In this document: positions 3,696-54,118 of the stretch, one piece after another | Numbering within the stretch: position 1 is the stretch's first letter | Layout: each line of letters begins with the position of its first letter | Source: Candidatus Zixiibacteriota bacterium | GTDB taxonomy: Bacteria > Zixibacteria > MSB-5A5 > GN15 > FEB-12 | NCBI GenBank assembly: GCA_029860345.1 | Contig: JAOUBJ010000002.1 | Span: 124,001-188,000, forward strand | DNA length: 64,000 nucleotides | Reading direction: 5' to 3' | Notes under the pieces: generated by a model | Told to the model about the DNA's origin: nothing | Seen by the model: the letters and a program-made list of their open reading frames with translations, nothing else | Database searches by the model: none | Program-made: the position numbers and the translations under genes

Positions 3696-3787
3696 TAGGG
3701 CAGGGTCCGTCTTCGGACCGGCAACTCGCAGACCAGTCACCCGCCATTTTGTCATACTGGCGAAGGCCAGTATCCAGTCTTCGATTT

Positions 3788-3869
3788 GGGTGGCCGCCTC
3801 CAACCTTGTATGGGGCGGGTGTCCAACTACCGTAGAATCACCCCCAAAGCGACTTTGAGGGTGCCACCC
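3788..3869. repeat. Three-hairpin intergenic repeat, copy 1
   Basis: Bounded by GGGTGGC (3788-3794) and GCCACCC (3863-3869), which pair. The right internal hairpin is CCCCCAAAG-CGA-CTTTGAGGG; the left one (CCTCCAACC...) is less well preserved than in copy 3. Other copies are at 50869-50945 and 53730-53804. Confidence 0.7.
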
Positions 3870-3898: not shown

Positions 3899-3937
3899 CT
3901 TGTAGGTCAGGAGCGCTCAGGGCTCCTGACCTACAAG
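3899..3937. repeat. 16-bp-stem inverted repeat
   Basis: CTTGTAGGTCAGGAGC pairs perfectly with GCTCCTGACCTACAAG around a short loop. No T-run follows. Related sequences ending in GACCTAC occur near 46837-46871 and 53883-53919, so this is a dispersed hairpin family rather than a gene-specific terminator. Confidence 0.7.
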
Positions 3938-37140: not shown

Positions 37141-37268
37141 GTGACACAATTGGCGGGTTCACGCCGCGGCGCGCGGGCGAAGACGGACCTGCCCTACGAC
37201 TCCGCTCGGGGTGACACAATTGGCGGGTTCACGCCGCGGCGGGCAGGCGAAGACGGACCTGCCCTACG
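37141..37268. repeat. 70-base tandem direct repeat
   Basis: GTGACACAATTGGCGGGTTC begins at 37141 and again at 37211; the two units are nearly identical over 58 bases, differing by two or three bases in the GCGGCG(C/G)GC(G/A)GGCG part. A related single copy is at about 50970-51028. Confidence 0.75.
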
Positions 37269-50868: not shown

Positions 50869-50945
50869 GGGTGGCCGTCTCAAGCCTTGCTTGGGACGGT
50901 ATATATCGAGAAACCACCCCCAAAGAAGCTTTGAGGGTGCCACCC
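50869..50945. repeat. Three-hairpin intergenic repeat, copy 2
   Basis: Begins GGGTGGC and ends GCCACCC. Internal hairpins are CTCAAGCC...CTTGGGA and CCCCCAAAG-AAG-CTTTGAGGG. Its middle, an AT-rich TATATATCGAGAAA, differs from copies 1 and 3. Confidence 0.7.
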
Positions 50946-51044
50946 AACCCGCCCCCTCAACTCCGCTCGGGGTGACAGAATTGGCGGGTTCACGTTGCGG
51001 CGCGCAGGCGAAGACGGACCCACCCTACTGAAGACAGAGATTAA

Positions 51045-53672: not shown

Positions 53673-54118
53673 GATCGTCGAGCCGACAAGTCTGTTCTTT
53701 GCGCTTCGCGCGCCGACGGGCAGTCGACCGGGTGGCTGCCTCAAACCTTGTGTTTGGGGCAGATAACAGGAATCACCCCCAAAGCGACTTTGAGGGTGCC
53801 ACCCAGTAGTAGGTCCGTGACCCTTGGAAAGTAGGGCGGGTCCGTCTTCGCCTGCGCGCCGCGGCGTGGACGCGCCAAATCGTCAGGAGCGCAATCCGCC
53901 GCGGCGGACTGACCTACGAAGACCGGAATTCCCTCACAACCTCTCCTGAGTCGCCAATTACCGGGGATAGGAATCGGGTAGAAATCCGGGTAACATAATC
54001 CTGATTTGAGTGCTCTAAAGGACCTGCAGATCGGTCAGTATGTTGGGTAACGCTGCCGATAATAAACTGGTAGGAATGGGTATACTACCAATTACATGGT
54101 AACCTGAGGAGACTTGCT
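53673..54118. repeat. Intergenic repeat cluster
   Basis: A 446-base gap with the third three-hairpin repeat (53730-53804), a GGGCGGGTCCGTCTTCGCC segment near 53834, and an AGGAGCGCAATCCGCCGCGGCGGACTGACCTAC hairpin (53887-53919). The last 180 bases are AT-richer and contain TGGTAG...CTACCA (54068-54090) over a TATACT. No gene recognised. Confidence 0.65.
53730..53804. repeat. Three-hairpin intergenic repeat, copy 3
   Basis: The clearest copy: outer GGGTGGC/GCCACCC pair, left hairpin CCTCAAAC-CTTGT-GTTTGGGG, right hairpin CCCCCAAAG-CGA-CTTTGAGGG. Confidence 0.75.

Follow-up and report, generated by a model that had tools for sequence, protein, structure and literature searches.

REPINs with unlike left and right REPs in a Zixibacteria genome, and the RAYT that most likely mobilises them

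The repeat at positions 53730–53804 of the 64,000-nt stretch of DNA analyzed here (the window) was found to be one copy of a REPIN family, the REPs of which are very probably recognized and cut by a RAYT encoded elsewhere in the same genome (L020), and this enzyme has most likely copied or moved the REPINs in trans. The element is of a known kind (REPIN/RAYT), occurring here in a new host from a little-studied bacterial group. In the original prediction, three copies in the window were likened to a non-autonomous mobile element or a unit of the REP type, which is supported by at least 77 matches of a covariance model in the genome, covariation in the stems, and a RAYT flanked by the same REPs. 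The copies in the window, and the parts of the third copy, are as follows:

3788–3869, + strand: REPIN copy 1, with an imperfect left hairpin (80.7 bits)
50869–50945, + strand: REPIN copy 2 (89.3 bits)
53730–53804, + strand: REPIN copy 3, consisting of left REP, spacer, and inverted right REP (85.4 bits)
53730–53736, + strand: left outer arm GGGTGGC of copy 3, with the GTGG foot at 53732–53735
53737–53761, + strand: left hairpin of copy 3 (stem 53737–53746 / 53752–53761, loop 53747–53751)
53775–53797, − strand: right hairpin of copy 3, head-first on this strand (stem 53775–53784 / 53788–53797)
53798–53804, − strand: right outer arm of copy 3, reading GGGTGGC with a GTGG foot on this strand

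All three copies were located where they had been predicted and featured identical GGGTGGC/GCCACCC arms. The pattern GGGTGGC-N40-70-GCCACCC was detected at three places in the window, against 0.01 on average over 100 shuffled sequences, and the right hairpin CCCCCAAAGNNNCTTTGAGGG, allowing up to three mismatches on both strands, was found only at the places of the three copies (0.07 expected). Likewise, the covariance model recovered the three copies and, beyond them, only two matches in the window (E ~0.4). The left loop of copy 3 was two bases longer than in most of the 44 copies aligned genome-wide. Regarding the fold, which had been proposed for DNA or RNA, the outer stem and both hairpins were formed in all six strands (three copies, two strands each) when folded as DNA, with a small additional spacer hairpin in four of the six minimum-energy folds. 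As RNA, the same architecture was obtained for five of the six strands, the proposal failing for the + strand of 53730–53804, which favored a single long hairpin because the right hairpin is nearly an inverted repeat of the left one. Folding energy z-scores of the window copies ranged between −2.0 and −4.7 for DNA and between −2.4 and −5.7 for RNA. Each of the three copies was located outside genes, 57–160 nt beyond the stop codon of a Pfam-matched gene.

Within the 4.76 Mb genome, GGGTGGC-N45-75-GCCACCC was present at 48 places, compared with two for the reversed pattern. Reading of 47 of these 48 places, and rejection of four that appeared by eye to be unrelated to the family (C1:484761, C2:265376, C4:46659, and C9:58144), left a family set of 44 copies with perfect arms. 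The genome-wide covariance search, in which 78 candidates were scored, yielded at least 77 matches at E ≤0.001; among the model matches listed, at least 67 distinct places were represented, namely the 44 perfect-arm copies and 23 copies with imperfect arms.

In the alignment of the 44 copies, 93.2% of the stem cells were paired, describing a conserved imperfect palindrome. Changes on both sides of a pair were counted in 37 cells, compared with 14.0 after shuffling of columns, and the covariation score amounted to 0.106, versus 0.056 in shuffled alignments and no more than 0.054 with the partners slid; neither value was reached in any of the 500 shuffles. Two-sided changes were confined to 4 of the 27 pairs, a number also reached in 26 of 500 shuffles, and the bulk of the signal came from two pairs (columns 10–28 and 64–68); the outer arms offered no possible variation, because the copies had been selected for perfect arms. 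The family is neither limited to a few copies nor devoid of covariation, the outcome that would have refuted the original prediction. Concerning the assumption that all copies are intergenic, 24 of 42 copies (two at contig starts being omitted) overlapped a mechanical ORF of at least 100 aa, compared with 1564 of 1868 random placements, this being a weak test because mechanical ORFs are abundant. The nine longest overlapping ORFs included only one with a Pfam match, located away from the element. The assumption holds for the window, and genome-wide the REPIN copies likely reside mostly between genes, as far as this rough test goes.

The unit, approximately 71–84 nt long, is composed of two different REPs arranged in inverted orientation around a short spacer. 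Read head-first, each REP starts with GGGTGG, containing the GTGG foot, directly followed by a hairpin of 10–11 pairs. GTGG immediately preceded both hairpins in the aligned copies, in agreement with the GT[AG]G tetranucleotide at the hairpin foot by which REPs are defined in passages of PMC2817692 and PMC3686654. The lower stems differ, the left REP reading GGGTGG CCGTCTCAAAC... and the right REP GGGTGG CACCCTCAAA[GC].... With up to three mismatches on both strands, the left pattern was found at 251 and the right pattern at 280 places in the genome, compared with 26 and 20, respectively, for the reversed patterns. Since the two patterns cross-match at three mismatches, only listed matches with zero or one mismatch (100 left and 100 right REPs) were used for the pairing analysis. 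Among these listed matches, heads-out pairs were left–right in 36 of 36 cases within 250 nt and in 37 of 37 within 400 nt, and no left–left or right–right heads-out pair was detected within 400 nt. At least 31 of the listed heads-out left–right pairs were spaced within 100 nt, so that the REPs recur as close inverted pairs. Heads-in pairs among the matches listed were also left–right (9 of 9), and the nine listed tandem pairs were mixed (four left–left, three left–right, and two right–right). For 101 of the 200 listed REPs, no listed partner was present within 400 nt; half-elements thus look roughly common. A mid-stem T.G was recorded for 38 of 44 left and 43 of 44 right REPs read head-first; on the reference strand, the right hairpin shows C.A at that position in 43 of 44 copies, with T.G on the other strand. 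In relatives, this position appeared by eye to be variable.

A search for Y1_Tnp domains revealed five ORFs in the genome, all above the Pfam cut-off. Four of them also exceeded the cut-off of 80 for NF047646, the NCBIfam model for REP-associated tyrosine transposases (88.7–156 bits), and the fifth, L019, scored slightly below it (75.5 bits). One of the five, L020, was flanked on both sides by REPs of the family described here, seven in total, and so a RAYT-like transposase, to be looked for according to the original prediction, was found:

G000:C3:277060–277602, − strand: RAYT L020, located outside the window (181 aa; NF047646, 93.1 bits)
C3:276933 and 277020: right REPs on one side of L020
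C3:277642, 277806, and 277970: left REPs on the other side of L020
C3:277680 (one mismatch) and 277844: right REPs on the other side of L020

The L020 protein retains H60-x-H62 and Y138, the latter aligning with residue 115 in the solved structure 4er8 (E. coli TnpA-REP), which is given as the catalytic residue in a passage of PMC8266576. The hairpins adjoining the RAYTs L016, L017, and L018 have GTAG feet, and those adjoining L019 read GGGTGGC-CCGGACG. The five RAYTs accordingly go with distinguishable REP families within one genome, and the family of this element is that of L020. By analogy with work on other RAYTs, L020 most likely recognizes the folded single-stranded, head-first REP through its foot and stem, cuts beside it using the HUH/tyrosine active site, and has copied or moved the REPINs round the genome in trans.

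Assignment of the element to L019 (C10:19117, − strand) instead appears improbable. The flanking repeats of this RAYT likewise start with GGGTGGC, a full copy of the REPIN is located 265 nt away from it (C10:18777–18852), and RAYTs that share a foot could act on each other's repeats. However, the repeats directly around L019 possess another stem (CCGGACG/CGTCCGG) on both sides, the single REPIN copy in its vicinity contrasts with the seven family REPs around L020, and L019 forms a long branch in the RAYT tree.

To L020, RAYT matches were obtained in 54 of 61 genomes, and the closest named RAYT (67% identity) originated from a Candidatus Zixiibacteriota genome (L117). Orthologues of L020 in other genera and families (39–57% identity) were surrounded by GTGG- or GTGC-footed hairpins, with the following heads as read by eye:

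L051, L052, L053, L057, and L058 flanks: GGGTGGC or GGGTGCC
L054 and L056 flanks: GCGTGGC
L055 flanks: CGTGCC

Around the closest orthologues, the TCAAAC...GTTTG core was kept by eye and the lower stem had drifted. In a scan for hairpins with feet, for which 80 of 90 loci were used and ten dropped, GTAG, GTGG, and GTGC feet were 6–7-fold denser next to RAYTs than more than 700 nt away (0.83 versus 0.14, 0.71 versus 0.12, and 0.62 versus 0.09 per kb, respectively), followed by GTTC (0.26 versus 0.05 per kb). The foot class agreed with the RAYT tree: for the 41 of 80 RAYTs that received a label (24 GTGG/GTGC and 17 GTAG; 39 rows without label), two changes were needed, compared with a mean of 13.3 and a minimum of 10 in 300 shuffles. 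This test is supportive rather than strict, because the tree was built by a quick method and places L017, L019, and L118 on long branches, and because most GTAG rows came from one query and the GTGS rows from another, so that sampling partly shaped the test. Of the 24 RAYTs labelled GTGS, 10 were surrounded by GTGC feet alone, and a REPIN in G036 had a GTGG foot at its left and a GTGC foot at its right end.

Counting against this assignment, the repeat and the RAYT did not always co-occur. Model matches were obtained in 15 genomes, only five of which (G000, G006, G025, G036, and G055) encoded a RAYT relative that was at least 39% identical; G004 featured 23 matches (both strands counted) with the RAYT only as a 26% fragment, and G017, G034, G039, and G040 encoded a RAYT of at least 39% identity without a model match, these counts being based on mostly fragmented drafts and strict filters for the covariance model. 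Single genomes of order-level relatives contained up to 12 (G053), 11 (G040), and 10 (G039) matches to L020, indicating that RAYTs multiplied in this order. As a variant, L237 and L238 in G055 possess a long right REP, with a second hairpin, ATGTATCATTGCTTCGCATGATACAT, added to the right hairpin.

The stable folds on both strands and the position of the window copies just beyond gene ends would also suit an element kept for a function in cis, namely a structured RNA or a signal for transcription (such as a terminator, mRNA 3' stabilizer, or riboswitch-like element), the link to a RAYT then being incidental. In addition, REPs elsewhere are described in a passage of PMC3686654 as acting on mRNA, an effect that can coexist with mobility. 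Nevertheless, this explanation is very unlikely. The Rfam scan of the window gave no match at the gathering threshold, and the tRNA/tmRNA scan of the window gave none either. A T-rich tail on either side, as intrinsic terminators would require, was present in a single copy among the 42 that do not lie at contig starts. Furthermore, neither strand is fully paired, each carrying one hairpin with T.G and one with C.A at a shared position in mid-stem; this is more in keeping with REPs recognized head-first, each on its own strand, than with a single RNA. Half-elements also appear common among the matches listed. A DDE transposase MITE bounded by terminal inverted repeats of GGGTGGC would account for a short dispersed unit with perfect inverted ends, but is scarcely credible, given that inspection of the sequences flanking the 44 copies by eye showed no target-site duplication, that MITEs feature neither solo halves nor two dissimilar hairpins inside, and that a Y1 transposase flanked on both sides by the same repeats is present in the genome.

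The insertion sites of the REPINs were compared with orthologous loci, and no clean empty site was found among them (the gene ends at copy 3 and two copies in G006). The gene upstream of copy 3 has orthologues in four of six other genomes of the same genus, none with a model match at the locus; the spacer was not alignable there and the downstream neighbors differed. At L210 (G006:C397:8609–9282), homology to G001 and G003 ended 4–7 nt before the REPIN and restarted approximately 84 nt after it, the two genomes containing 666 and 420 nt of other sequence, including an apparent ORF, instead of an empty site; the REPIN here lies at the junction of an indel or rearrangement, or else the draft is in error. 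The other copy in G006, L213, gave one-sided matches on separate contigs.

Upstream of the left arm, C, G, T, and C occurred in 27, 29, 22, and 30 of the 44 copies, respectively, and A followed the right arm at +1 in 27 of 44. In 20 held-out copies of this genome, enrichment was nominal only at −2, −1, and +1 (p = 0.023, 0.008, and 0.006; −4, p = 0.28; −3, p = 0.076), and in 40 copies from relatives (41 less one duplicate), −4, −3, −1, and +1 to +5 were enriched, all these p-values being uncorrected and the copies not fully independent. Taken together, CGNC tended weakly to precede the left arm directly and RGCCG to follow the right arm, most markedly in the relatives; for CGNC, the tendency was strong in the 44 copies and in the relatives but weak in the 20 held-out copies. 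A target or cleavage preference is one reading of this tendency. For copy 3, these flanks correspond to 53726–53729 and 53805–53809. A connection between the flank preference and the predicted CC cut site was not borne out.

REPINs have already been published, as have GT(A/G)G feet, heterodimers, and genomes with several RAYTs, as seen from passages of PMC3116915, PMC2817692, PMC3686654, PMC3733652, PMC8266576, and PMC6006769. According to the parts of PMC3116915 considered, REPINs of Pseudomonas fluorescens SBW25 likewise consist of two inverted REPs and a spacer, fold into a hairpin, show compensatory changes, leave singlets as remnants, and have a RAYT nearby. Both REPs of an SBW25 unit share one symmetrical consensus, whereas left and right REPs differ here and, among the matches listed, pair only with each other, half-elements appearing common. 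The y and z REPs of E. coli REP/BIME, as described in passages of PMC8266576, similarly represent two REP types in inverted pairs with an irregular mid-stem position and a single Y1 HUH enzyme (TnpA-REP), but feature a GTAG foot and an AA-GC bulge instead of the GTGG foot and T.G/C.A position. Passages of PMC2817692 and PMC3686654 on GTGG-footed REPs of Pseudomonas and Stenotrophomonas agree with respect to the GT(A/G)G head (nearly) directly before the palindrome, inverted REPs flanking the RAYT, and coevolution of RAYT and REP; the stems, RAYT clade, and phylum are different. With TnpA-Y1 subclass 2.4 (RAYT group 4), as presented in part of PMC6006769, the system shares the WQ and YIxNNP motifs, a length of approximately 190 aa, a variable HUH-to-Y insert, long REPs with a GT[AG]G foot, and a scattered distribution over phyla, although the HUH motif reads T-H-V-H instead of N-H-[IFV]-H (motifs compared by eye).

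Less ordinary are the strict left–right heterodimers, the GTGC feet in relatives, and the CGNC flank preference. Heterodimers are mentioned in a passage of PMC3733652 for several GTAG and CGTC families. The foot in published REPs is GT[AG]G, or CnGA for class 3, in the parts considered of PMC2817692, PMC3686654, PMC3733652, PMC8266576, and PMC6006769. A GTGC foot is absent from the passages of PMC8266576 considered, and none was found in a narrow literature search on REP and tyrosine transposase; literature joining Zixibacteria with REP sequences was likewise not found, in a search covering a minority of subscription journals. As a tentative and rather doubtful idea, these RAYTs may constitute a broad branch with GTG[GC] feet that departs from the published GT[AG]G rule, in which unlike ends would force excision or copying as a heterodimer. 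Foot positions 3–4 are described in a passage of PMC8266576 as choosing the cut site by complementarity (GTAG, GTGG, and GTAC); if they guide the cut here too, a GTGC foot would direct cleavage to GC, and the cleavage sites of left and right REPs would differ. If true, this would provide a mechanism for strict left–right pairing, the unit being excised or copied only as a heterodimer. The left–right rule and the GTGC feet in relatives thus offer testable ideas on cut-site choice by RAYTs, and five RAYTs with matching separate REP families in one genome represent a natural test of RAYT specificity. Moreover, a well-marked REPIN/RAYT system is added from a Zixibacteria host.

Besides the REPINs, other repeats were noticed in the window. 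A second REP family, the GTAG-footed GTAGGGYGGGTCCGTCTTCG, also seen beside the RAYT L018, occurred at five places with up to three mismatches (0 expected), two of them no more than 100 nt away from REPIN copies 2 and 3:

328–347: GTAGGGYGGGTCCGTCTTCG REP
37178–37197: GTAGGGYGGGTCCGTCTTCG REP
37248–37267: GTAGGGYGGGTCCGTCTTCG REP
51009–51028: GTAGGGYGGGTCCGTCTTCG REP
53831–53850: GTAGGGYGGGTCCGTCTTCG REP

A third REP family, GTAGGTCAGGAGC, as beside the RAYT L016, was found in inverted orientation at 3902–3934, 32 nt past REPIN copy 1. In addition, a GTCAT...ATCCAGTCTTC palindrome, which resembles published CGTC-tagged REPs, was located directly upstream of the REPIN in six copies (window 3749–3787, L047, L049, L188, L194, and L201), the REPIN therefore adjoining this repeat identically each time.
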